Shown here: positions 1,426 through 64,000 of the stretch, piece by piece
Position numbering within the stretch: position 1 is the stretch's first letter
Layout of the letters: the number at the start of each line of letters is the position of its first letter
The notes under the pieces: generated by a model
The model's database searches: none
What the model was told of the DNA's origin: nothing
Seen by the model: the letters and a program-made list of their open reading frames with translations, nothing else
Made by a program: the position numbers and the translations under genes
Assembly (NCBI GenBank): GCA_963556695.1
Contig: CAUWAG010000007.1
Location: 4,030,001 to 4,094,000, forward strand
Source: Anthostomella pinea
Taxonomy: Eukaryota > Ascomycota > Sordariomycetes > Xylariales > Xylariaceae
Length of the DNA: 64,000 nt
Direction: 5' to 3'

Positions 1426-1668
1426 TGTCACGGCGCTGGACCCTGCCTATGGGCAGGAAGTGGAGGGACCCCGGGCGCCAGCTGTGGGCGGCCCGGGTGG
1501 ACCGATATGGACCTGAGAACTGACAATATCTTCACTGTCCCCGCCCGAACCTGAATTGTAGCTCTTCGAGCTACGTCCTGTCAATAGAGTTACCCGTAAC
1601 CCTGCCAGAACCGTAGAGAATAAACTGTCATACGATCACTTATACTGCCCGTACCGGAGCCCGTGACA
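1426..1668 (+). repeat. 5' LTR of chromovirus E1
   Basis: This 243-bp terminal repeat is matched by 7104-7346 with one difference. It has 8-bp terminal inverted repeats (TGTCACGG/CCGTGACA) and an internal hairpin at 1558-1574 (GTAGCTC, loop TTC, GAGCTAC). The right arm of the hairpin runs into GAGCTACGT (1568-1576), which is complementary to ACGTAGCTC just after the LTR (1671-1679). Confidence 0.95.
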
Positions 1669-1710
1669 TTACGTAGCTCCTATCCTATAGGCGCCGTATC
1701 TACTGCAAGA

Positions 1711-3087
1711 ATGTCCCAGGAGCGGCCTGAACCGCCTTCGGGAGCGGACTCTCCAGAAGAGCTCGTTGCCCACGTTACCAACAACCCGTCCGACTGGCTG
1801 TTATACTTGCGCCATATCAATGGCTACGCTGCCGCCTTGAAGGAAGAGAACGATTTCTCCCGCCTCGCCGACTCTGACCACGATAACTCCCTCCAGTCCC
1901 TCCGATCGACCATCGCCAAGCAAGAGGGAATTATCGAATACCAAAAGCAACAGCACCGAGAAGATACTGCCCTGCTCCAGAAGGAGATTACCCATCTGGA
2001 GGTTGAGAAACTCCGCCTGCTCGACGCCGCCACGCCCGCTGTCCACACTCCCCGACCCGTCCCTGCCGCTATCCCAAGTCCCCTGGCTGAACAGCCTGCG
2101 GATTCTGTACCAATACCGACTACGCTTGTTCCGCCCGTCTGTTCCGGATCTTCCCATCTCAGTGAGAAGATCCCTGACCCAAAAGAATTCGATGGCTCTC
2201 GAAGCGACCTTCGCCGGTTCACGCAACAGACCTATGGCAAGATGACCGCCAACGCTGACCGATTCCCGACCGCTGCTGCCCGCCTGACCTATGTTGCTGG
2301 ACGTCTGACCGGGAAAGCCTACGAATTGATCCTGCCGAAGACCCGCTACGGAGTTCCCGAGTTCCTCGATTACCCGGAAATGCTTGCCTACCTGGAGAAC
2401 GCCTTTGGAGACCCCGACCGTATTCAGAATGCCCAGAATAAACTATACCAGCTGAAGCAGAGGAACCTGGATTTTAGCACCTTCTTTTCCGAATTTCAAC
2501 GCCTGGCCCTGGAAGGAGAGATGCCCGAGGACGCCCTGACCCCATTGTTGTTCCAAGGCATATCTCGCGAACTTCAGGATATGCTCCTACACAGCCCGAC
2601 CCCGTCCCGGAAATACAGAGACTACGCCAACCATCTGCAAGCTCTGGATAACCGCTTCCGCCAACACCAACAGCAAGTCTCCCGGAACCGTATCGTCACT
2701 CCTGCCAGAACCCCTGCCAGTTATGCCGCCGCCGTTGTCCCCCGCCAGCCCGCTGCCGCGAGCCCGAACCCGAGCCCGGACCAGCCCAAGAGAGAATGGA
2801 GAGCGCCCCGACCTGCTTCGCCCGTCGCCAACGGAGGAGAGCCTATGGACTTGAGCTCCCAGAAAAGATTCGCCCCCGGTGGAAGGAAAGAGCGCGGAGA
2901 ATGCTTCCGCTGCGGTTCAGAGGGTCATCGCGTCGCTGCCTGCCCCGAACCTGATACTCGCCCCTCGTCCCAACTTCGTCAATTCCGTGCCAGCTATGTC
3001 CACCGTTTCGATAGCCCTGATCCTGTCCGATCTGTCAGCCCGCCTCCCAGCCCACCGAGCTCGACAAATGGAGCGAGTCTGGGTTAA
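1711..3087 (+). CDS. gag: Gag polyprotein of chromovirus E1
   Basis: Structural protein that packages element RNA in cytoplasmic virus-like particles. The start is the ATG at 1711, giving about 458 residues; the open frame also runs upstream into the LTR but has no earlier ATG. Residues about 50-105 look coiled-coil. The middle holds the retrotransposon gag segment, with [20 protein letters not shown] as the recognisable stretch. One CCHC zinc knuckle ([14 protein letters not shown]) lies near the C-terminus. The frame stops at TAA (3085-3087), and the protease frame follows in -1 phase with the two frames open across the junction. E2 carries the same gene with one coding difference noticed (Leu here, Pro in E2, at about 2085). 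Confidence 0.9.
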
Positions 3088-3203
3088 GTCGCACCCAGGC
3101 TCCCAAGAAAGAGCGCCGCCCGAGAACCGCTGCCACCGTCCGACTATCTGCTGCCGCCGCCAAGGGAGTCTCTGTCCAAGAAGAAACGGATCAGAGGTCC
3201 CAT

Positions 3204-3911
3204 TTGATGATTCTACCTGTTACCCTGGAATTAGGAAGCAAGGCGCTCCCGACTTACGCCATGACCGATACCGGAGCCGAAGGAAAAGGCTTCATAGACC
3301 AGAGCTGGGCCGCGAGCCACGAGCTACCCCTGAGGAAACTAAAGAGACCATTCGGATTAGAAGTGTTCGATGGAAGAAACGCCGAGAGTGGAATGATCAC
3401 CCACTATATCGAGACCCGACTGAGAACTGAAGACCATTGCGAAGAGATCAAGCTCTTCGTGACCCAACTGGCCCATTACCCCGTTATTCTGGGAATGCCC
3501 TGGCTAAAGAAGCACGACCCGAAGATCGGATTCGCCTGCCATACCTTTACTTTTGACAGTGAATACTGCCGGAAACACTGCAATACTCCCGCCCGCCCGA
3601 CGAAGATCCGAGCATTGCATGACGTCCCTGCCAAGGCCCGACCGCACAACTTGCCTCCCCGACCGGCTGAGCTGCAGCATCTAGATATTGCCCGAGTATC
3701 GTTAAGAGCCTGTACGATGTACAGCCGAAAGAACTGCCAGCTTTTTACTGTTACGATCAATGATATCGACCGGTACCTGCAGAATGCCAGCCCGCCGGAG
3801 CCCCGAGACCTGCTGCCCGAGGAACTAAAAGATTATGCCGACATCTTTTCACCCAAGGAAGCCGAAAGACTCCCCCCGCACCGGGATTATGATCACGATA
3901 TCCGCCTGTAG
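3204..3911 (+). CDS. Aspartic protease domain of chromovirus E1
   Basis: Retropepsin-like protease that cuts the Gag-Pol polyprotein. The active-site motif is [11 protein letters not shown], and ILGMPWL is the usual conserved downstream segment. The frame is open from about 3063, so the 3204 ATG is only the first Met and expression probably depends on a -1 shift from Gag. The frame ends at TAG (3909-3911); the RT domain continues in the same phase with [14 protein letters not shown], so a single UAG separates protease and RT. E2 has exactly the same arrangement, which suggests either a readthrough strategy or a defect already in the parent element. Confidence 0.85.
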
Positions 3912-6900
3912 GATGGCAAGACGCCCCCATTTGGACCACTGTACCCAATGTCCCGCAACGAGCTGATCGCACTGAAGAAATGGCTGGAAGAGAACCTGCG
4001 CAAGGGGTTCGTCCGTCCCAGCTCGTCGCCTGCCGCCTCCCCAGTCCTGTTCGTAAAAAAGGCTGATGGAAGCCTCCGTTTCTGCGTCGACTACCGAGGA
4101 CTGAACAACATCTCTGTTAAGGACCGATATCCGCTGCCTTTGACCAAGGAATCGCTGAACAACCTGAAGGGAATGAAGTACTTCACGAAGATCGATATCG
4201 TGTCTGCTTTCAATAATATCCGCATGAAGAAAGGACAAGAGTACCTGACCGCGTTCCGTACCCGCTTTGGCTTGTACGAGTCCCTGGTGATGCCCTTTGG
4301 ACTGACTGGGGCCCCCGCAACCTTCCAAAGGTTCATGAACGACACCTTGCGAGAGTACCTAGATGTATTTTGCACTGCCTATCTAGACGATATCCTGATC
4401 TACAGCCGTACTCGAGAAGAGCACCTGAACCACGTCCGCAAGGTATTAGAGTCCCTGAGACAAGCCGGCCTGTATGCCAAGATCCAGAAGTGCGAATTCT
4501 TCAAGGATGAGACCACCTTCTTGGGTGTAATTGTCGGGAAGAATGGGATTCGCATGGACCCGAAGAAGATCGAGACCATTCAGAACTGGCAAACCCCGTC
4601 CTGCCTGACAGACGTCCAAGCGTTTATCGGATTCAGTAACTTTTACCGACGCTTCGTGAAGGATTTCTCGAAGATCATCGCCCCTATGGTAGCCCTGACG
4701 AGAAAAGGAATGCGTTTCCACTGGAACCCGGCCTGCCAGACTGCCTTTGACCGCCTGAAGCAAGCTTTTACGACAGCGCCTGTCCTGGCCCCGTTTGATT
4801 GAGGAAAAGATATCATCCTGGAGACCGACGTGTCTGATTACGTGTCCGCCGGAGTGTTGTCCCAGTATGGGGACGATGGAATCCTAAGGCCAGTAGCTTT
4901 CTTTTCGAAAAAACACTCGACGACAGAGTGTAATTACGAAATTTACGACAAGGAACTGCTGGCGATTATCCGCTGCTTCGAAGAATGGAGACCCGAGCTG
5001 GAGGGGACAAGTTCCCCGATTAAGGTTATTACTGACCACCGGAACCTAGAGTATTTCACGACGACAAAGTTACTGAACCGCCGCCAAGCCAGATGGTCCG
5101 AATTCCTGTCCCGTTTTAACTTCAAGATTGTCTACCGCCCCGGAAAGCAAGGAGCGAAGCCGGATGCTCTGACCAGGAGGTCAGAGGACCTGCCTAAAGA
5201 GGGGGATGAACGCCTATTGCACCAGAGTCAGGTAGTGCTGAAAAGAGCCAACCTTGACGATTTCTTACCTATAGATAGGAAACCGGAAGACCAGCCCGTT
5301 AAGTTGCCGCCAATTCCACCACAGACTCCTGAGGTTCTTGAACCAGTGCCTGCTGCCCCAGAACCCGTGCCAAAACCAGCCCGCCCCGTCAAGCGAGTAC
5401 GATTCGCAGACCCGATCCTGAAGCTGTACCCAATCACTCGCAGCCAGCTCCGTGGACCTGGAGCTCCAGACCACCGACCACAGCCCGATTTGGAACCACC
5501 ACGGCCTGCACTGCCCGTCGAGAGGACTACACCGCTGCTACCTCCCCAGATCCAGGACCTTTTCAACCAAGGATACGCCACAGACAAAGAACTACAGTCG
5601 ATCGTCCGAGCTCTGAAAGAAAAGAAGTCTCGCCACCGCAAGATATCACTGGCCGAGTGCGAACTGTCCGGAGAACACTTGTATTACCGCGAACGCCTGT
5701 ATGTCCCTGCGAACGAAGGACTCTACGCCGAGCTCCTGCGCCTGTACCACGCTAGCCCTGTCGCCGGCCACATGGGTCGAGCCCGTACGTACGAAGTACT
5801 GTCCCGAGAATACTACTGGCCTGGTATGTTGTCTTATGTCGAACGATGGGTTCGCAATTGCCATACCTGCAAGAGGACTACCGCCTCGAGAGAAGCCCGT
5901 CAAGGAGTCCTGAGACCCCTCCCGATTCCCCAGAGAGCCTGGCAAGATATTTCGATGGACTTCATCACGCACCTGCCCGACAGCTACGGCTACGACGCGA
6001 TCCTGGTAGTCGTCGACCGCCTGACCAAGATGAAGCACTTCATCCACTGTAAGGGAACCTGCGATTCTGAAGAAGTCGCCCGTCTATATGTTAAGTATGT
6101 CTGGAAACTGCACGGCCTGCCTAGAACCATTGTATCCGACCGAGGACCCCAGTTCGTATCTGATTTCTGGAAGCATCTGACCAAACGCCTGGGAATCACC
6201 GCACTGCTGTCGACCGCCTACCACCCCGAGACCGATGGGCAGACCGAGATCGCCAATTCCTTCCTGGAACAGTACCTACGAGGCCACGTATCATACCTTC
6301 AAGACGACTGGGTACGCTGGCTACCGTTAGCCGAATTTGCGATCAATAACGCACTGAACGAGAGCCTGAAGACCACGCCCTTCTTCGCGAATTATGGATA
6401 TCACCCCCGTTTCGGATTCGAACCTGCCCTACCCGGACGTCGCCTTGCCGCCAAGGATGCCGAGGAGGTCGCCCTGAAGATGGCCACTGTACACGAGTAC
6501 CTGAAGTCTGAGATCTGCATCGCCCAAGCCCGCCACGAGGAGTATGCCAACCGGAAACGCCGACCTGCCCGCAGATTCTACGTCGGACAGAAGGTCTGGC
6601 TAGACGCAAGGAACATCAAGACTGCCCGCCCCCAAAAGAAGCTTGACTGGAAGAACCTGGGCCCGTGGGAAATAGCTAAGGCTATTAGCCCGTACGCCTA
6701 CCGCCTGAAGCTGCCTGCGTCCATGAGAATACATCCTGTCTTCCATGTAAACCTGCTGCGCCCTGATTCTGCCGACCCCCAGCCTGGACAGCAGCAAGAA
6801 CCGCCGCCTCCCATCGAAGTAAACGGCCTGCAAGAATGGACTGTAGAGGAGATACTTGATTCCCGCTGGGATCGCCGAGGACGTGGAGGAAGGCCTAACC

Positions 6901-7037
6901 TGAAGTATACTGTTAAGTGGGAAGGATACGACGAGCCCACGGAGTCCCCTGCTGCCTGGCTCGAGAATGCACAGGAGGTTGTTAACAACTTCCATCGCCG
7001 GTACCCGAACAAGCCCGGACCTGAACCTCCGCTATGA
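3912..7037 (+). pseudogene. pol: RT-RNase H-integrase-chromodomain of E1, broken by one TGA
   Basis: Replication and integration polyprotein. RT shows the FCVDYRGLN segment and the catalytic YLDDILIYS motif, and RNase H the ETDxSDYVSAG motif. Integrase has a His/Cys finger ([10 protein letters not shown] to CHTC) and the D, D, E residues in [15 protein letters not shown] and TDGQTE. A chromodomain lies at the C-terminus ([18 protein letters not shown]). Tryptophan after PFD has become TGA (4800-4802; TGG in E2), splitting the frame into 3948-4802 and 4803-7037. A second C-to-T nearby changes Ala to Val in the RNase H motif. Both fit RIP-type or deamination damage. Confidence 0.9.
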
Positions 7038-7103: not shown

Positions 7104-7346
7104 TGTCACGGCGCTGGACCCTGCCTATGGGCAGGAAGTGGAGGGACCCCGGGCGCCAGCTGTGGGCGGCCCGGGTGGACCGATATGGACCTGAGAACTG
7201 ACAATATCTTCACTGTCCCCGCCCGAACCCGAATTGTAGCTCTTCGAGCTACGTCCTGTCAATAGAGTTACCCGTAACCCTGCCAGAACCGTAGAGAATA
7301 AACTGTCATACGATCACTTATACTGCCCGTACCGGAGCCCGTGACA
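7104..7346 (+). repeat. 3' LTR of chromovirus E1
   Basis: This is the 243-bp partner of 1426-1668, differing by a single C/T transition. The polypurine tract GAGAGGGGAGTAC lies directly upstream. The right flank AGAGG is the reverse complement of CCTCT, which flanks the far end of E2. Confidence 0.95.
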
Positions 7347-9080
7347 AGAGGTTTCTATCTCTATTGTACAAGTTCGCGCATCATGGCCAGTATTGCCGCA
7401 AACGCTACACTGTCGCCCACGCGCTGCCGCCCGCCTCGGACGACGACTACCTTCACCCATTTCCTGTTTTGCCAGCTCAGTACCATCCTTTGCAGTCTGA
7501 AGATCTACTGCATCTTTAACGGAAAATATTCCGCTTTTTATTAGATATTTATTTTTTGTTTTTTGGTGTTTACTTAGTAAGTGATTAGCCTCTTCTAGTT
7601 TGCGGACCCGGGAATTAACCAAAGCGACCTTATGCATAAGACCGTATGTAGCCTTTGAAAACGAGCTCAATGTATCAACTATTAATGTAAGTGAGCTTCC
7701 CTGGTGGTTTCTGACTCGGTTTCGGATATAAACCGATTGGTTTACCGCTTCATTAATGGTGGTAGGCGTCTTCGAAGTCCAAGTAGTGGGTGGCAGATTG
7801 GGGTCTGGCGACGGTGTTCGTATGACAGCGACAGCATCCAGCTTTGAAATGACACTTTCTGGGTCAAAAGGAACAAGCCCAGTGGCACTGAAACCTGCTC
7901 GAATGTTTCCTGGCGTCATAGCAGCGTTATGTGCTTCACAAAACGCTGCAAAGAACTCCTCCTTCGAGACGTGGGTTATATGACGCCGGATGAGATCCTT
8001 AATCATGCGACCGTAAGCTCGTTTGAGCGGGCTAAAACAGCCGACATCTAGAGGCTGGAGCCTGTGTGACGAGTGGGCAGGCATACAAAGGGTGATAATG
8101 CCGTTGTTCTGACAATAATCCTCAAAGACCTGGGAATGGTGGCTTTCGTGACCATCTAGGATGAGGAGGCGTTTACCGGCAGTCATACGCGGTCTGGTAT
8201 ACTTGTCGAAATGCTGAATCCATTCCAAACCAATCTCATTCGTGGTCCACCCATTGTCGGACACGGCCACCTTCCAATCGCGTGGTAATATCGTGTCGCA
8301 ATACCATGACGCGAGGTGGGTTTTGTCCTGTAGAATGATGAACGGCGGGACCACCCAACCATCAGCATTAACAGCAGAGATTGCTGTAGACTATTCCCTG
8401 TTGCCTTGCTGAGCTTGTCTAGGCCTGCCACGTCTTTCGGCGCTTGTAACGACCATGCCGGACCCAATAATGCCCATCATAAACCCAGTCTCGTCAAAGT
8501 TGTAAATATCCGCGTCTTGGATACCATGTTTTGCGACTGCTGCTGCAACTTGGCAAAACCACGCGCGATACGCGTCTGGATCCTCGTTCAAGACCCTCTG
8601 GTAGTCTATCTTCCGATGAAAACGTGTCCGGAGGCCTGGTGTACGTTTGATGAAGTTCCGCGTCCAGTTCTTTCCAACGCGTCCAGCCCCATGCGCCGCC
8701 AACAATTGATTCGCCATATCTTCAATATAACTGTACCGGGGCGGCAATGCTCGCGCATCCAGGTCGAGAATGAAGGAACAAATAGAATTCTCTTTGGAAA
8801 CCATAAGTTTCAAAGTATTGGCATGCTGTCGCGTCGTGATGGCATTCCTTTGACTCTATTGCTCAAAGTGGAACGAGGGACGTTAAAGAGTTTTGCAAGC
8901 TGAAATATAGGAATATGAGGGTCACGTCGTTTAGCTTGAACAGCTAGCTGCAAGTCTGATTCGTTATAACGCGGTGCCATTGTTGTTGGTGGAGATATGA
9001 TGGTTTGAATCGTATTGGTTGGAAAGTTCATGACGAGTGCCAACTCGCTTGTAGTGTCAACTCGCTTGTCAGCTACGTTA
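7347..9080 (-). mobile_element. pogo-type DNA transposon copy B, main part with transposase pseudogene
   Basis: Transposase of the pogo/Fot branch of Tc1-mariner, which inserts at TA. On the minus strand: 5' terminal inverted repeat (9026-9080), Psq-type helix-turn-helix (FQLAKLFNVPRSTLSNRVKG), CENP-B-like second DNA-binding domain, DDE core (NFDETGF, LLILDGHESHHS, LQPLDVGCFSPLK), and a C-terminal CCHC knuckle (CSVCGNTGHDARTC). Two lesions break the gene. A one-base deletion near 8822 shifts frame after RRDSMP, where copy A is still in frame. A TGG-to-TAG change lies at 8391-8393, where copy A retains Trp. E2 insertion removed the last about 130 bp, now found at 16227-16360. Transposition from this copy in cis would need another transposase source. 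Confidence 0.9.
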
Positions 9081-10614: not shown

Positions 10615-13600
10615 TCATAGCGGAGGTTCAGGTCCGGGCTTGTTCGGGTACCGGCGATGGAAGTTGTTAACAACCTCCTGTGCATTCTCGAGCCAGGCAG
10701 CAGGGGACTCCGTGGGCTCGTCGTATCCTTCCCACTTAACAGTATACTTCAGGTTAGGCCTTCCTCCACGTCCTCGGCGATCCCAGCGGGAATCAAGTAT
10801 CTCCTCTACAGTCCATTCTTGCAGGCCGTTTACTTCGATGGGAGGCGGCGGTTCTTGCTGCTGTCCAGGCTGGGGGTCGGCAGAATCAGGGCGCAGCAGG
10901 TTTACATGGAAGACAGGATGTATTCTCATGGACGCAGGCAGCTTCAGGCGGTAGGCGTACGGGCTAATAGCCTTAGCTATTTCCCACGGGCCCAGGTTCT
11001 TCCAGTCAAGCTTCTTTTGGGGGCGGGCAGTCTTGATGTTCCTTGCGTCTAGCCAGACCTTCTGTCCGACGTAGAATCTGCGGGCAGGTCGGCGTTTCCG
11101 GTTGGCATACTCCTCGTGGCGGGCTTGGGCGATGCAGATCTCAGACTTCAGGTACTCGTGTACAGTGGCCATCTTCAGGGCGACCTCCTCGGCATCCTTG
11201 GCGGCAAGGCGACGTCCGGGTAGGGCAGGTTCGAATCCGAAACGGGGGTGATATCCATAATTCGCGAAGAAGGGCGTGGTCTTCAGGCTCTCGTTCAGTG
11301 CGTTATTGATCGCAAATTCGGCTAACGGTAGCCAGCGTACCCAGTCGTCTTGAAGGTATGATACGTGGCCTCGTAGGTACTGTTCCAGGAAGGAATTGGC
11401 GATCTCGGTCTGCCCATCGGTCTCGGGGTGGTAGGCGGTCGACAGCAGTGCGGTGATTCCCAGGCGTTTGGTCAGATGCTTCCAGAAATCAGATACGAAC
11501 TGGGGTCCTCGGTCGGATACAATGGTTCTAGGCAGGCCGTGCAGTTTCCAGACATACTTAACATATAGACGGGCGACTTCTTCAGAATCGCAGGTTCCCT
11601 TACAGTGGATGAAGTGCTTCATCTTGGTCAGGCGGTCGACGACTACCAGGATCGCGTCGTAGCCGTAGCTGTCGGGCAGGTGCGTGATGAAGTCCATCGA
11701 AATATCTTGCCAGGCTCTCTGGGGAATCGGGAGGGGTCTCAGGACTCCTTGACGGGCTTCTCTCGAGGCGGTAGTCCTCTTGCAGGTATGGCAATTGCGA
11801 ACCCATCGTTCGACATAAGACAACATACCAGGCCAGTAGTATTCTCGGGACAGTACTTCGTACGTACGGGCTCGACCCATGTGGCCGGCGACAGGGCTAG
11901 CGTGGTACAGGCGCAGGAGCTCGGCGTAGAGTCCTTCGTTCGCAGGGACATACAGGCGTTCGCGGTAATACAAGTGTTCTCCGGACAGTTCGCACTCGGC
12001 CAGTGATATCTTGCGGTGGCGAGACTTCTTTTCTTTCAGAGCTCGGACGATCGACTGTAGTTCTTTGTCTGTGGCGTATCCTTGGTTGAAAAGGTCCTGG
12101 ATCTGGGGAGGTAGCAGCGGTGTAGTCCTCTCGACGGGCAGTGCAGGCCGTGGTGGTTCCAAATCGGGCTGTGGTCGGTGGTCTGGAGCTCCAGGTCCAC
12201 GGAGCTGGCTGCGAGTGATTGGGTACAGCTTCAGGATCGGGTCTGCGAATCGTACTCGCTTGACGGGGCGGGCTGGTTTTGGCACGGGTTCTGGGGCAGC
12301 AGGCACTGGTTCAAGAACCTCAGGAGTCTGTGGTGGAATTGGCGGCAACTTAACGGGCTGGTCTTCCGGTTTCCTATCTATAGGTAAGAAATCGTCAAGG
12401 TTGGCTCTTTTCAGCACTACCTGACTCTGGTGCAATAGGCGTTCATCCCCCTCTTTAGGCAGGTCCTCTGACCTCCTGGTCAGAGCATCCGGCTTCGCTC
12501 CTTGCTTTCCGGGGCGGTAGACAATCTTGAAGTTAAAACGGGACAGGAATTCGGACCATCTGGCTTGGCGGCGGTTCAGTAACTTTGTCGTCGTGAAATA
12601 CTCTAGGTTCCGGTGGTCAGTAATAACCTTAATCGGGGAACTTGTCCCCTCCAGCTCGGGTCTCCATTCTTCGAAGCAGCGGATAATCGCCAGCAGTTCC
12701 TTGTCGTAAATTTCGTAATTACACTCTGTCGTCGAGTGTTTTTTCGAAAAGAAAGCTACTGGCCTTAGGATTCCATCGTCCCCATACTGGGACAACACTC
12801 CGGCGGACACGTAATCAGACGCGTCGGTCTCCAGGATGATATCTTTTCCCCAATCAAACGGGGCCAGGACAGGCGCTGTCGTAAAAGCTTGCTTCAGGCG
12901 GTCAAAGGCAGTCTGGCAGGCCGGGTTCCAGTGGAAACGCATTCCTTTTCTCGTCAGGGCTACCATAGGGGCGATGATCTTCGAGAAATCCTTCACGAAG
13001 CGTCGGTAAAAGTTACTGAATCCGATAAACGCTTGGACGTCTGTCAGGCAGGACGGGGTTTGCCAGTTCTGAATGGTCTCGATCTTCTTCGGGTCCATGC
13101 AAATCCCATTCTTCCCGACAATTACACCCAAGAAGGTGGTCTCATCCTTGAAGAATTCGCACTTCTGGATCTTGGCATACAGGCCGGCTTGTCTCAGGGA
13201 CTCTAATACCTTGCGGACGTGGTTCAGGTGCTCTTCTCGAGTACGGCTGTAGATCAGGATATCGTCTAGATAGGCAGTGCAAAATACATCTAGGTACTCT
13301 CGCAAGGTGTCGTTCATGAACCTTTGGAAGGTTGCGGGGGCCCCAGTCAGTCCAAAGGGCATCACCAGGGACTCGTACAAGCCAAAGCGGGTACGGAACG
13401 CGGTCAGGTACTCTTGTCCTTTCTTCATGCGGATATTATTGAAAGCAGACACGATATCGATCTTCGTGAAGTACTTCATTCCCTTCAGGTTGTTCAGCGA
13501 TTCCTTGGTCAAAGGCAGCGGATATCGGTCCTTAACAGAGATGTTGTTCAGTCCTCGGTAGTCGACGCAGAAACGGAGGCTTCCATCAGCCTTTTTTACG

Positions 13601-13740
13601 AACAGGACTGGGGAGGCGGCAGGCGACGAGCTGGGACGGACGAACCCCTTGCGCAGGTTCTCTTCCAGCCATTTCTTCAGTGCGATCAGCTCGTTGCGGG
13701 ACATTGGGTACAGTGGTCCAAATGGGGGCGTCTTGCCATC
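10615..13740 (-). CDS. pol: RT-RNase H-integrase-chromodomain polyprotein of E2 (intact)
   Basis: An uninterrupted frame with 1029 codons from the first Met at 13704, in phase with the protease frame upstream across one TAG (13741-13743). Domains in order: RT with YLDDILIYS; RNase H ([12 protein letters not shown]); a proline-rich linker; integrase zinc finger ([10 protein letters not shown] ... CHTC) and D,D,E core ([21 protein letters not shown]); C-terminal chromodomain ([18 protein letters not shown]). In this family the chromodomain binds modified histone H3 and steers integration to heterochromatin, which fits the AT-rich surroundings. One C-to-T difference from E1 changes Arg to Cys (GICMDPKK). 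It appears enzymatically complete. Confidence 0.92.
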
Positions 13741-14448
13741 CTACAGGCGGATATCGTGATCATAATCCCGGTGCGGGGGGAGTCTTTCGGCTTCCTTGGG
13801 TGAAAAGATGTCGGCATAATCTTTTAGTTCCTCGGGCAGCAGGTCTCGGGGCTCCGGCGGGCTGGCATTCTGCAGGTACCGGTCGATATCATTGATCGTA
13901 ACAGTAAAAAGCTGGCAGTTCTTTCGGCTGTACATCGTACAGGCTCTTAACGATACTCGGGCAATATCTAGATGCTGCAGCTCAGCCGGTCGGGGAGGCA
14001 AGTTGTGCGGTCGGGCCTTGGCAGGGACGTCATGCAATGCTCGGATCTTCGTCGGGCGGGCGGGAGTATTGCAGTGTTTCCGGCAGTATTCACTGTCAAA
14101 AGTAAAGGTATGGCAGGCGAATCCGATCTTCGGGTCGTGCTTCTTTAGCCAGGGCATTCCCAGAATAACGGGGTAATGGGCCAGTTGGGTCACGAAGAGC
14201 TTGATCTCTTCGCAATGGTCTTCAGTTCTCAGTCGGGTCTCGATATAGTGGGTGATCATTCCACTCTCGGCGTTTCTTCCATCGAACACTTCTAATCCGA
14301 ATGGTCTCTTTAGTTTCCTCAGGGGTAGCTCGTGGCTCGCGGCCCAGCTCTGGTCTATGAAGCCTTTTCCTTCGGCTCCGGTATCGGTCATGGCGTAAGT
14401 CGGGAGCGCCTTGCTTCCTAATTCCAGGGTAACAGGTAGAATCATCAA
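13741..14448 (-). CDS. Aspartic protease domain of chromovirus E2
   Basis: Same protease as in E1, with the [11 protein letters not shown] active site and ILGMPWL. It is -1 relative to Gag and separated from RT by one in-frame TAG. No difference from E1 was noticed. 14448 is the first Met; the open frame extends upstream to near the Gag stop. Confidence 0.85.
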
Positions 14449-14564
14449 ATGGGACCTCTGATCCGTTTCTTCTTGGACAGAGACTCCCTTGGCGGCGGCA
14501 GCAGATAGTCGGACGGTGGCAGCGGTTCTCGGGCGGCGCTCTTTCTTGGGAGCCTGGGTGCGAC

Positions 14565-15941
14565 TTAACCCAGACTCGCTCCATTTGTCGAGCTCGGTGG
14601 GCTGGGAGGCGGGCTGACAGATCGGACAGGATCAGGGCTATCGAAACGGTGGACATAGCTGGCACGGAATTGACGAAGTTGGGACGAGGGGCGAGTATCA
14701 GGTTCGGGGCAGGCAGCGACGCGATGACCCTCTGAACCGCAGCGGAAGCATTCTCCGCGCTCTTTCCTTCCACCGGGGGCGAATCTTTTCTGGGAGCTCA
14801 AGTCCATAGGCTCTCCTCCGTTGGCGACGGGCGAAGCAGGTCGGGGCGCTCTCCATTCTCTCTTGGGCTGGTCCGGGCTCGGGTTCGGGCTCGCGGCAGC
14901 GGGCTGGCGGGGGACAACGGCGGCGGCATAACTGGCAGGGGTTCTGGCAGGAGTGACGATACGGTTCCGGGAGACTTGCTGTTGGTGTTGGCGGAAGCGG
15001 TTATCCAGAGCTTGCAGATGGTTGGCGTAGTCTCTGTATTTCCGGGACGGGGTCGGGCTGTGTAGGAGCATATCCTGAAGTTCGCGAGATATGCCTTGGA
15101 ACAACAATGGGGTCAGGGCGTCCTCGGGCATCTCTCCTTCCAGGGCCAGGCGTTGAAATTCGGAAAAGAAGGTGCTAAAATCCAGGTTCCTCTGCTTCAG
15201 CTGGTATAGTTTATTCTGGGCATTCTGAATACGGTCGGGGTCTCCAAAGGCGTTCTCCAGGTAGGCAAGCATTTCCGGGTAATCGAGGAACTCGGGAACT
15301 CCGTAGCGGGTCTTCGGCAGGATCAATTCGTAGGCTTTCCCGGTCAGACGTCCAGCAACATAGGTCAGGCGGGCAGCAGCGGTCGGGAATCGGTCAGCGT
15401 TGGCGGTCATCTTGCCATAGGTCTGTTGCGTGAACCGGCGAAGGTCGCTTCGAGAGCCATCGAATTCTTTTGGGTCAGGGATCTTCTCACTGAGATGGGA
15501 AGATCCGGAACAGACGGGCGGAACAAGCGTAGTCGGTATTGGTACAGAATCCGCAGGCTGTTCAGCCGGGGGACTTGGGATAGCGGCAGGGACGGGTCGG
15601 GGAGTGTGGACAGCGGGCGTGGCGGCGTCGAGCAGGCGGAGTTTCTCAACCTCCAGATGGGTAATCTCCTTCTGGAGCAGGGCAGTATCTTCTCGGTGCT
15701 GTTGCTTTTGGTATTCGATAATTCCCTCTTGCTTGGCGATGGTCGATCGGAGGGACTGGAGGGAGTTATCGTGGTCAGAGTCGGCGAGGCGGGAGAAATC
15801 GTTCTCTTCCTTCAAGGCGGCAGCGTAGCCATTGATATGGCGCAAGTATAACAGCCAGTCGGACGGGTTGTTGGTAACGTGGGCAACGAGCTCTTCTGGA
15901 GAGTCCGCTCCCGAAGGCGGTTCAGGCCGCTCCTGGGACAT
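14565..15941 (-). CDS. gag: Gag polyprotein of chromovirus E2
   Basis: Gag with the start ATG at 15941, an N-terminal coiled-coil-like region, a retrotransposon-gag core and one CCHC knuckle ([14 protein letters not shown]). It ends at the same TAA as E1 Gag. The Pro at IPSPPAEQ (Leu in E1) is one of the rare differences between copies. Confidence 0.9.
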
Positions 15942-15983
15942 TCTTGCAGTAGATACGGCGCCTATAGGATAGGAGCTACGTAA

Positions 15984-16226
15984 TGTCACGGGCTCCGGTA
16001 CGGGCAGTATAAGTGATCGTATGACAGTTTATTCTCTACGGTTCTGGCAGGGTTACGGGTAACTCTATTGACAGGACGTAGCTCGAAGAGCTACAATTCA
16101 GGTTCGGGCGGGGACAGTGAAGATATTGTCAGTTCTCAGGTCCATATCGGTCCACCCGGGCCGCCCACAGCTGGCGCCCGGGGTCCCTCCACTTCCTGCC
16201 CATAGGCAGGGTCCAGCGCCGTGACA
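15984..16226 (-). repeat. 5' LTR of chromovirus E2
   Basis: 243-bp LTR. It carries T at the site that is C in this element's 3' LTR, the same within-element mismatch as E1. Confidence 0.95.
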
Positions 16227-29760: not shown

Positions 29761-31251
29761 CTACACGCTCTGCCACTGCAGCTGCAACGTAGTCCCATGG
29801 CTGCCCTCGGCCGCATAAACCGTCCCCTGCGTCGACCCGCTCGGCACCGAGTCCGCAAACCAGTCGTCCGCACCCGCAGCCGAATTCAGCAGGGCCGACC
29901 CCTCCGCCGCGAACACGCCCGGGGACTCGACGCTCGACGCGCACGTCAGCGACCCCGACGCCGCCGAGCAGTCGCCCTTGCTCGTGCTGAGCGAGAACCC
30001 GCTGCCCGAGGATGTCGCGGTGAAGGTCGCGCACGTGCCAGTCGTGTACCACGTCCCGCCCGAGATCAGACAGCCCTTGGTAGATCCGCCCGTGACGGCA
30101 TTGAGGTAGCCCTTGCCGGCGAACACGCCGCCTGTGGCCGTGGGCGACGGACCCCCGGTAGTGGTCGTTGTCGTGGTCGGTGGCGTGGTGCCCGTGCCCT
30201 TGGGCAGGTACTTCACCCCCGTGCTCGGACATCCGCCGTCATCACTACTATCGGGACTAGCGGGCACCCACTCGCCCGTGATGGCATTGCCGCGGACGTT
30301 GAAGTAGTAATATACTTGCTCGACAGCACTAGAAGTGCAGCCGATGTAGACCTCCTCGCCGCCGTGGTTCTTGGATAGCGCGGCCTGAATGGCGGCGAGC
30401 GTGTAGGTCTTGGTGCTGCTGGGCGTGATGCCAGCCGCTGCGAGCCACTCGTAGGTCGGCAGCGACTTGAAGAGGCTGACGGTTAGGTTGAAGAAGTAGG
30501 GCACTTCCTCTGTGGGCTGGTAGCTGGTGAAGCAGGCGGGCGCCAGGGTTGAGACGCAGGTGCCGTGCTTGCCCCATTCGCTGGGAGGAAGGTGTCAGTA
30601 AATTACATGTTCGAATGATTCATTGCGGTAGCCGGAGAAGCCCTGAAGAGATGGCCATTGCATAATACATACTGCTCCCAGAACTCCTCCCCAGTGCTGT
30701 CATTCGGCAGCCAGTCGTCAAGCAAATTAGAGTCAGCAATTACTTCTTTTAGATGTTTTGTGGAGTAAAATGGAGTCGTAATGCGTGTCTCGGGAGCATA
30801 TGACAGACTAGAAGAGGAAATTCGCGCCCTGGACATGGCCATATGGGGAAATAAGAGACTCGAAAATATACATACAAGTCTTCATGTAATCCAACAGGTC
30901 CCCGTCGCCGGCGGCGGTCAGGATGGCCGAGATGTTGGTGTAGGCGCGCTTGCTGTCGCAGGTCGAGTCGTATGTGCCGTCGCAGTGATCAGGCCACAGG
31001 CCGTGGATGGTCCACGAGTCGGCCGGGCCGACGGCGGGCGCCGTGTCCCAGAATTGTGTTTGTAGCAGCGACCCGCCCGGCGAGTTGAAGCAGCACGTGT
31101 CGGTCACGGCCGTCGTGTTGTGGCACGAGAGCTGCGCCGCCGCCCCAGTGCTGGCGCACGTCTTGGGCGCGCCGGCGAGGGCGGGCGACGCGAGCTGGGA
31201 CACGCCTAGGAAACCTAGCAGGGCCGCCAACTTTGTGTGAGGGAGGGCCAT
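29761..31251 (-). CDS. Secreted ribonuclease T2 with C-terminal extension
   Basis: Extracellular endoribonuclease that cuts RNA through a 2',3'-cyclic phosphate. The start ATG (31251) gives a signal peptide (MALPHTKLAALLGFLG...). Exons are 31251-30876, 30715-30673 and 30580-29761, giving 412 residues. Both active-site blocks are present: SWTIHGLWPDHCDGTY (CAS-1) and EWGKHGTC (CAS-2). A Thr-rich linker (PTTTTTTTGGPSPTATGG) joins a C-terminal domain of the fungal RNase T2-like type (GCLISGGTWYTTGTCATF). Intron 2 (30581-30672) is ordinary. The first interruption (30716-30875) is a repeated element also found in the sedolisin gene. If its canonical AG (30743-30744) is used, exon 2 begins at 30742 and the protein gains 9 in-frame residues (421 in all). 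Confidence 0.9.
30716..30875 (-). repeat. Introner-like element copy 1, inside the RNase T2 gene
   Basis: This 160-bp insert is about 90% identical to 63168-63328. On the coding strand it starts GTATGTATAT like a splice donor and ends AATTTGCTTGACG. It splits a Tyr codon (T|AC) between DYMKT and WLPNDS of the RNase, and the coding sequence is exactly restored if the whole insert is removed. The element ends CG rather than AG. A canonical AG 27 nt upstream of its end would instead leave 9 codons (about IADSNLL) in frame. Confidence 0.8.
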
Positions 31252-62410: not shown

Positions 62411-64000
62411 TCAATAATGCAACTCAACACCAGCCAAGCTGACCAGCTCAGGGAAAATTGGAGTGCCTAAGCCCGTGACCGGGCTATCAAACTGTCAGTG
62501 TTACTCTTGTAGATAACATGGCTGTTTCTCGGGAGTTCAAACTCGTATTTCAGGTGCAAACACCCCCGGCAGAAGTTCGACCTCCCGAGACACCATGCAA
62601 GGGGACAGAGGTTCAGTTAGTACTTACTCCCAGCCTGTCGCTGCAGGGAATCCATCCGTATTACATCCGACAGCGGACCCGGAGACGATGTCAGTCAGGC
62701 CCTTGAAACCCTTAGAGTAGAGCCAGGGGTTCAGGAAGCCGAGCGATGGCTTGCCGGAAGAGAGCAACGCATCACTGCAACAGTGTCAGTACTTGTCCCG
62801 CAAAGAAACTTGAGATCACGCGTTGGCCCCAGGAGGAGGTGTCTGTATATAGTATGGATGACTTACTTGACCAGGGAGATTATTCCGCCTGTCAGTGGAG
62901 TACTAGCGCTTGTGCCACTGTGATTTGTTTTTAGTAAGCTTTTCAACCGCAAGCGAAGAGCCAAACCCAAATACCTGATAGTATCTTCTGTGCCGTTCCA
63001 GAAGTAGGCGAAGTTGAGACCCTGGGCCGAGATGTCCGGGTATCCACGGCCGGTGTGGTTGTACAGGCCGTCGTAGAGGCCATCGAGGCTTTCAATGTAG
63101 CTTGTGGCCTCCTTCTTCTGGTAGTCGGGCATAGGGAAGTAGTTGCTGAAGCCACCACCAGAAGCATCGGCAAGCAAATTAGAGTCAGCAATTGCTTCAT
63201 TTAGATGTTTTGTGGAGTAAAATGGAGTCGTAGTGCATGTCTCGGGAGCATGACACGGGCTAGAAGAGGGAATTCGCGCCCTGGACATGGCCAAATGGGG
63301 AAATAATGAGACTCAAAAATGTACATACATTCACCGCCGCTTACACCTCGGGAGTCGACGAAGGCAGGTAGATACGCTACGATTTCAGGTTCGAAGTTCA
63401 TGGTCGCTCCAACCGTGGTAACGTATCCGCAGCTAGAGGGGAACATCGGCAGGAACTTGGACGAGTTGGTTCCGTCGTTGCTGATGCATTCATCCTCGGG
63501 GCCTACGCCGTAGTCGCCGCTCGAGAACAAGAGCGAGGTACCTCGGGCACCGACTTGTGCGAATTGTTGACAAACTCGCAGGGCGTAAGAGTAGGGAACC
63601 GTCTGCTCATCTTCTCCATACGACGTCGTTATGACCTGGGGAAGAGAGCCATTCTGGGACAGCAACCAGTTCACCCACACCAGGTACGGCTCGTTCGAGT
63701 TGTCAGGGGTGCTGGCGTCAGGGTTGAAGGGAGGGCTGCCGCCCGTTGAGTAGCTGATGATGGGTACAGTTTTGGTGATACCGGCGATAGCTTGGACGTC
63801 CAAGTTGGCTTCCTCCGATTGGGCATTCTCGAGATCTTCTTCGCTCAGAGGGAGGTCTCCCGGTCCGCCAGCAATGGTAATCTGAGGAAACGTGAAGGCG
63901 CTGTGAACAGCACTCGGCTGGTACTTCTCAAGAAATTCGACAGTGTCGCTGCGGATAGGGTGATCGCCGAAGAAGTTGTTAAATCCTATCATGTTAATAT
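62411..64000 (-). CDS. Sedolisin-family (S53) secreted serine protease, 3' part
   Basis: Acid-acting tripeptidyl-peptidase/sedolisin, running off the right edge. Exons are 64000-63329, 63167-62975 (or from 63194), 62917-62867, 62774-62628 and 62483-62411. Catalytic features: the Glu/Asp pair in EEANLDVQ, oxyanion Asp in SSGDYGVG, and nucleophile in SGTSASTP, which splicing creates at the 62918-62974 intron. The C-terminal calcium-site region is TDIVSG and GWDPVTGLGTP. Between FVDSRGVSGGE and ASGGGFSNYF lies the 161-bp repeated element also found in the RNase T2 gene. Signal peptide and part of the propeptide lie beyond the window. The reading frame shows no other lesion. Confidence 0.9.
63168..63328 (-). 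repeat. Introner-like element copy 2, inside the sedolisin gene
   Basis: A 161-bp insert about 90% identical to 30716-30875, same orientation relative to its host gene. It starts GTATGTACAT and ends AATTTGCTTGCCG on the coding strand. It splits a Tyr codon (T|AT), and removing it exactly restores the conserved YASGGGFSNYF. As in copy 1, a GAAG acceptor 27 nt before the end would be the canonical splice site and would keep 9 extra codons in frame. Confidence 0.8.

Follow-up and report, generated by a model that had tools for sequence, protein, structure and literature searches.

The 64,000-nt stretch of the Anthostomella pinea F5 genome analyzed here (the window, C5:4030001–4094000; Xylariaceae, Xylariales; 53.7 Mb assembly) contains genes for an RNase T2 and for a sedolisin, each interrupted by a copy of the same intron-like insert (Table 1). 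The initial annotation had described the two inserts as near-identical, alike in orientation relative to their genes, sharing a GTATGT donor and a tyrosine codon split after its first base, and restoring conserved protein exactly when removed. All of this held: the inserts are identical at 148 of 163 aligned positions (91%, one gap), lie on the minus strand as their host genes do, and share the donor and the split codon (T/AC in the RNase T2, T/AT in the sedolisin), and their excision yields YMKT-Y-WLPND and GGE-Y-ASGGGFSNYF, respectively. A blastn comparison between the inserts gave an E-value of 5e-63, which excludes chance. After flush removal, the RNase T2 junction is gap-free against solved RNase T2 chains; the sedolisin junction is gap-free against tripeptidyl-peptidase 1 chains, with one gap eight residues before it, and is likewise gap-free against the 20 homologues compared, of 120 listed. 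A terminal AG is among the firmest rules of eukaryotic introns, and CG ends are rare. Neither insert ends in AG, a point absent from the initial annotation: the final bases are ACG in copy 1 and CCG in copy 2.

Table 1. Positions of the two inserts, their host exons and other elements in the window.
Feature	Position	Strand	Description	Basis
Putative introner copy 1, RNase T2 gene (L001)	30716..30875	-	160 nt, GT...ACG, phase 1 (T/AC)	Sequence; homologue match at junction
Copy 1, predicted 5′ splice site GTATGT	30870..30875	-	Invariant among the eight CG copies	Sequence
Copy 1, branch-point motif GCTGAC	30732..30737	-	16 nt from 3′ end	Sole RYTRAY match in element
Copy 1, 3′ end ACG	30716..30718	-	No AG	Sequence; 3′ pattern search
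Copy 1, internal AAG (rival acceptor)	30743..30745	-	If used, mRNA keeps 27 nt (9 residues)	
RNase T2 exon upstream of copy 1	30876..31251	-	Start codon at 31251 (by eye)	PF00445
RNase T2 exon downstream of copy 1	30673..30715	-	43 nt; far edge by eye	Homologue alignment
Likely ordinary GT...CAG intron, RNase T2 gene	30581..30672	-	Would join ...FWE-H-EWGKHGT	By eye
Putative introner copy 2, sedolisin (S53 tripeptidyl-peptidase) gene (L007)	63168..63328	-	161 nt, GT...CCG, phase 1 (T/AT)	
Copy 2, predicted 5′ splice site GTATGT	63323..63328	-		Sequence
Copy 2, branch-point motif GCTGAC	63184..63189	-	16 nt from 3′ end	
Copy 2, 3′ end CCG	63168..63170	-	No AG	Sequence; 3′ pattern search
Copy 2, internal AAG (rival acceptor)	63195..63197	-		
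Sedolisin exon upstream of copy 2	63329..64000	-	Extends past window edge	Homologues
Sedolisin exon downstream of copy 2	63020..63167	-	63020 is not a mapped exon edge	Homologues
Retroelement, left copy	1663..7037	+	pol-like frame interrupted	By reading
Retroelement, right copy	10615..15989	-		By reading
Frame resembling a DDE-type transposase fragment	7314..8354	-		By eye

The window also holds a pair of near-identical retroelements in inverted orientation, both with the same 474-residue gag-like frame and, by reading, a pol-like frame in which reverse transcriptase and integrase-like sequences occur, and a further frame that resembles a transposase fragment. An Rfam search at gathering thresholds returned no match in the window.

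A genome-wide family of related inserts

The initial annotation had read the inserts as a mobile intron of the introner kind and had expected, from two copies within 33 kb, that more would lie elsewhere in the genome. In total, 75 matching places were obtained by BLAST-type and pattern searches, 51 by alignment, 17 more by patterns for the 5′ and 3′ ends together, and 7 by the 5′ end alone, so that 68 of the 75 are supported by more than the 5′ end. Copy 1 as a query gave at least 41 matches in its own genome (best 40 of 93 candidates scored); queries with three other copies added places, and one further copy inside locus L009 brought the alignment set to 51. The 26-base 5′-end pattern (≤3 mismatches) matched the genome 62 times, against no match for the reversed control, and of the 24 places found by this pattern alone, 17 had a match to the 3′ pattern (0–2 mismatches) 90–200 bases further on and 7 had none. 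Another 26 places match only the 3′ pattern (0–2 mismatches) and stand outside the 75. Because only the best candidates were scored, 75 is a lower bound for the family. Three pairs of copies lie close together (C6:335670 and 336151; C16:3191404 and 3191666; and, on the contig of the window, C5:4199415 and 4202637), two of them <500 bases apart and perhaps within one gene each.

Of the 75 places, 39 were studied with their flanks, and their introns were aligned (8 with CG ends, 31 with AG ends). Donors among the 39 were GTATGT (35), GTGTGT (3) and GCATGT (1), that is, GT in 38 and GC in one; the 3′ ends were CAG (17), GAG (11), AAG (2), TAG (1), ACG (5) and CCG (3). The motif GCTGAC lies exactly 16 nt from the end in all eight CG copies, and a RYTRAY match occupies the same position in 27 of 31 AG copies, the exceptions being L013, L025, L051 and L082. 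In L051 the usual tail is lost and the apparent end is TTACAG, possibly an acceptor newly acquired following a deletion. In the 30 copies aligned together with their flanks, similarity breaks off at the edges of the intron; the base before the intron is T in 20 of 39 copies. A twin-intron ([D1,2] stwintron) structure was considered and rejected: its centre motif was found in none of the 39 copies, and the element can be removed flush from GTATGT with no additional G.

The coding context of the 39 junctions was scored in both directions by means of a codon model, for which seven long open frames from the window served as the training set. Twenty-seven junctions had a coding-like frame open on either side of the insert in one direction or both, and 12 had none in either direction. 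Among the 27, the score was higher in sense for 26, and L028 passed in antisense only (6.3 versus 1.8, with an open sense frame present as well). Protein matches place five of the 12 failing copies in sense (L003, L005, L008, L015 and L021). Over all 39, the antisense score was the higher in five (L005, L010, L013, L028 and L061); one of these, L005, is placed in sense by a UbiA match. A Pfam domain spans the flush junction in seven of the eight CG genes and in 10 of the 20 AG genes given to Pfam (all of the 31 but L011, L012, L013, L017, L025, L027, L028, L030, L040, L048 and L061), and the families at the junctions are unrelated to each other. The eighth CG gene, the sedolisin, is without a Pfam hit and is backed by the tripeptidyl-peptidase 1 chains and homologues described above. 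For three genes, a protein-level comparison showed orthologous proteins to be continuous at the insertion site.

With 75 places, a mostly sense orientation in coding frames, no target-site duplication (below) and a frame restored on removal, the earlier reading of the inserts as introners stands; a mobile intron is the best reading of the family and, judged from sequence, a likely one. The introner reading is in itself well supported as a known kind of element.

CG 3′ ends and their clade

The 3′ ends of the family were surveyed genome-wide with a pattern for the terminal region in which any base at −2 or −1 other than those of AG or CG would cost one mismatch. At 0–1 mismatch, 65 places were recovered, of which 57 end in AG, 8 in CG and none in anything else; at two mismatches there were 22 further raw matches (19 AG, 1 CG, 2 other). 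Over all mismatch levels, at least 158 matches were obtained, against 51 for the reversed control. A narrower version of the pattern returned the same eight CG ends together with one AG copy, L004. The eight CG copies, which comprise both copies in the window and six elsewhere, all end in [A/C]CG and are 87.5–98.1% identical to each other.

In a tree built without the last eight alignment columns, the eight CG copies and L004 formed a clade (support 98/98). In none of 200 bootstrap trees (0%) does a single branch set the CG copies apart from all others, as L004, an AG copy, is placed in their midst, and the tree requires two changes between CG and AG. Thus, either L004 regained AG by mutation or exchange (reversion or conversion), or CG arose twice. 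The tail of the AG copy L014, TTGCAG, is one base off the TTGCCG of CG copies, which suggests a route by which the CG tail arose: TTGCCG and TTGACG may derive from an AG tail such as that of L014 by a change of A to C, and would then have spread with the element.

Across the family, the last six bases are shuffled among the lineages defined by the body, with 16 hexamer changes on the tree; TACCAG, for example, is shared by L004, L013, L015, L023 and L025, and GAGGAG by L043 and L081. This shuffling suggests that copies recombine or that templates are switched between them, or else that the 3′ end is renewed when the element inserts.

Protein continuity at the CG junctions and competing readings

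For the eight CG genes, three products were compared: that of removal to CG, that in which the last 3 nt of the element are kept, and that in which an AAG 27 nt upstream of the end (−27) serves as the acceptor. All eight regain conserved protein once the element is removed at CG. The Pfam scores of the three products, in this order, were 49.2, 42.1 and 37.7 bits for RNase T2 (L001), 49.1, 40.1 and 33.0 for a luciferase domain (L002), 76.4, 73.0 and 73.4 for a fungal rhodopsin (L003), 159.1, 156.8 and 145.3 for UbiA (L005), and 119.0, 121.7 and 117.2 for a nitrilase (L006); for MFS (L008; 82.8 and 72.7) and ApbA (L009; 69.9 and 65.9) the third product hits a stop. Removal to CG was top-scoring in six of the seven CG genes with a Pfam hit. 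Profiles built from homologues (40 of 120 listed per gene) gave 505.0, 497.1 and 487.4 bits for the nitrilase, 925.2, 915.9 and 907.8 for the sedolisin, and 572.6, 566.8 and 329.3 for the MFS protein. Retention of the last three bases as a way round the non-AG end was rejected, the score being lower in six of seven Pfam comparisons and in all three homologue profiles. The exception is the nitrilase, in which the broad Pfam model favors retention by 2.7 bits and the closer homologue profile reverses the order; its junction, LLYPSA/FTVPTGRAHWEVLLR, is gap-free against homologues and lies within LLYPSAFTVPTGRAHWEVLLR, which is kept almost letter for letter in the 20 homologues compared. Thus, eight copies start with GT, end in CG and restore conserved protein on removal, as a U2-type GT-CG intron would.

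Retention of the whole element leads to a stop inside it in all eight CG copies. With the donor fixed, AG acceptors were scanned in the interval that starts 45 nt past it and reaches 75 nt into the exon. An in-frame AG occurs at −27 in all eight copies and at −30 in six; use of the latter runs into an immediate stop, or one within 4 codons, in all but L002, where the AAG at −30 leaves the frame open. Neither of the two phase-2 copies has a nearby AG that yields a plausible protein: in L008 the in-frame AGs lie only at −30 and −27, with a stop within 4 codons, and in L009 those at −81, −30 and −27 lead to stops within 21, 4 and 3 codons, while another 63 nt into the exon would delete 21 residues. 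The AG at −123 in L003 keeps the frame open but gives a 37-nt intron, and further in-frame AGs would give introns of 17 nt (L007) and 37 nt (L003 and L005).

Two public A. pinea proteins are 97–98% identical to two of the host genes. The public models of L006 (P0241) and L008 (P0121) use GT-AG sites in the element or the neighboring exons and avoid CG, with loss of the conserved FTVPTGR in L006 and of nine residues around GFFLMPCL in L008. The A. pinea annotation is described as ab initio and homology-based, without RNA-seq (PMC10763133). Both models are likely wrong at the CG intron, as far as protein conservation indicates.

Splicing of the CG copies at the AAG at −27, with exonization of the last 27 nt and addition of nine residues (e.g., LIADSNLLD), is an unlikely alternative, albeit one with several points in its favor. 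The AAG is present in all eight copies, and its use leaves the frame open in the six of phase 1; phase 1 is found in six of eight CG copies versus six of 21 AG copies (Fisher p 0.038), an excess that hints at use of this AAG at least in part and is the best evidence for its occasional use. The scores separating the two products are close in L003 (76.4 versus 73.4 bits) and in the Pfam comparison of L006 (119.0 versus 117.2), and a precedent exists in Aureococcus, whose introners are reported to add 12 bases to the transcript (Gozashti et al., PMC9860276). However, the same AAG leads to a stop after 3 codons in the phase-2 copies, none of the eight CG copies has a RYTRAY match 5–45 nt upstream of it, and its product scored below that of removal to CG in all six phase-1 genes (Pfam for L001, L002, L003, L005 and L006; homologue profiles for L006 and L007). 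Its use would also insert nine residues into conserved motifs such as PSAFTVPTG.

Alternatively, the CG copies may be defective, the clade having lost its acceptor and spread as DNA anyway, with the host genes impaired or decaying. Splicing at CG ends is rare, with 8 of 60,223 introns in Drosophila, each reported with a similar alternative splice (PMC4528330), and 19 (0.02%) in Ganoderma lingzhi (PMC11590231). Against decay, an open frame and conserved motifs flank all eight CG junctions although the copies have diverged from each other by 1.9–12.5%, and protein evidence places all eight in sense within a coding frame. Moreover, the splice signals, CG included, are less variable than the body: among the eight copies, none of 7 donor positions, 2 of the last 26 positions (one being the base before CG) and 39 of 127 body positions are variable (Fisher p 0.003 for donor and 3′ segment versus body; p 0.015 for the 3′ segment alone). 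This would be unexpected if the CG end were dead, although some of the 3′ conservation may be older than the insertions and carried over from the source copies. We regard the defective reading as improbable.

Equally improbable is a reading of the element as a MITE, a non-autonomous DNA transposon whose terminal inverted repeats and target-site duplications give rise to introns. The near-terminal regions of the element are partly complementary, with 90.5% of cells paired versus 27–43% when the ends are slid against each other, as such an element would have; a near-terminal stem in the RNA is possible on this pattern. However, covariation in the stem was no higher than in shuffles, k-mers of 2–6 bases common to both edges were not above permuted controls in the 39 copies, so that no target-site duplication was seen, and the sense orientation of 26 of the 27 copies passing the coding test is not required of a DNA insertion unless selection removed the rest. 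Finally, base-calling error is a very improbable source of the CG ends: although the assembly was built on Oxford Nanopore reads, coverage is about 80x (PMC10763133), and an error would have to hit an identical pair of bases in a single clade, with AG read in 57 related tails of that assembly.

A predicted CG-spliced lineage and its relatives

The inserts in the window are thus best regarded as members of a likely introner family, and both belong to its CG-ended clade, whose copies are probably spliced at CG by the ordinary spliceosome. The new part is the clade of eight itself, with its predicted splicing at CG. We further lean towards the view that this is a lineage of selfish introns freed from the AG rule, its CG 3′ site being spliced accurately and multiplied to at least eight genes as a working part. 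U1 and U2 would base-pair in the usual way with GTATGT and GCTGAC, and the second step would take the G of CG, 16 nt past the branch-point motif, as the 3′ splice site; CG may be accepted because the spacing and the terminal G are kept though the A at −2 is lost. The element may have spread by way of its excised RNA, inserted into DNA either at breaks or through reverse splicing, which would explain the seamless edges. If this is right, the CG form too must have been cut out at CG. Conversely, CG splicing, if confirmed, speaks for copying through excised intron RNA, because the CG edges of the spreading form are defined by splicing only.

The clade apparently provides eight evolutionary replicates of one non-AG intron, in eight genes of a genome that also carries dozens of AG siblings, one of which has nearly the same body as the CG copies. 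This is a natural comparison for what lets the spliceosome accept CG and for whether a mobile intron must be spliced to spread. It also exposes a practical fault, as the public models of two genes probably lack conserved residues at the CG intron. Searches of titles and abstract openings in the open-access literature on introners, stwintrons and GT-CG introns found no CG-ended introner family. In fungal annotations, all non-canonical types except GC-AG and AT-AC are reported to total 0.257% (PMC7072748). In yeast, 3′ sites other than YAG are reported to become active when Prp18 is lost (PMC10711555).

The closest likeness is to the sister stwintrons and cropped sister introns of Xylariales, which are described as seamless, without target-site duplication and with complementary ends, and for which the first of the routes considered here, entry of excised intron RNA at DNA breaks, has been proposed (PMC8469720; PMC12403724). 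The order is the same, tens of similar introns occur in unrelated genes, insertion is seamless, and the distance from branch point to acceptor is unusually long in both (14 or 19 nt in those introns, 13 nt here by the same count); the partly complementary ends of the A. pinea family may be a further likeness. However, those introns are described as having AG acceptors and as mostly [D1,2] twin introns, whereas the A. pinea family is devoid of the centre motif in the 39 copies and includes a CG clade. The 10-nt elements printed in PMC12403724 are absent from the A. pinea consensus; otherwise, the two were compared by description. The introner-like elements of Dothideomycetes are likewise many near-identical mobile spliceosomal introns in unrelated fungal genes, but belong to another fungal class, and no CG-ended family is mentioned in the excerpted text of that report (Collemare et al., 2015; PMC4457414).

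More broadly, the introners surveyed by Gozashti et al. (2022) are families similar up to the splice edges, as here, and those of Alternaria alternata are reported to be without hallmarks of known DNA transposition (PMC9860276). Excerpts of that survey describe rare GC and GA 5′ sites and no family with a non-AG 3′ end. The AG rule is broken too by the introners of Amoebophrya (PMC7789003), which are repeated elements, and by introns of the tunicate Fritillaria (PMC13326754), but in both of these most introns of the genome are reported to break the rule, the Amoebophrya introners have direct repeats at their edges, and Fritillaria has a duplicated U2AF. In the A. pinea genome, one locus for the U2AF large subunit and no second was found, so a duplication of the tunicate type is not seen for that subunit. 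In the A. pinea CG clade, by comparison, the GTATGT donor and the branch point are canonical, and a single base of the terminal AG differs.
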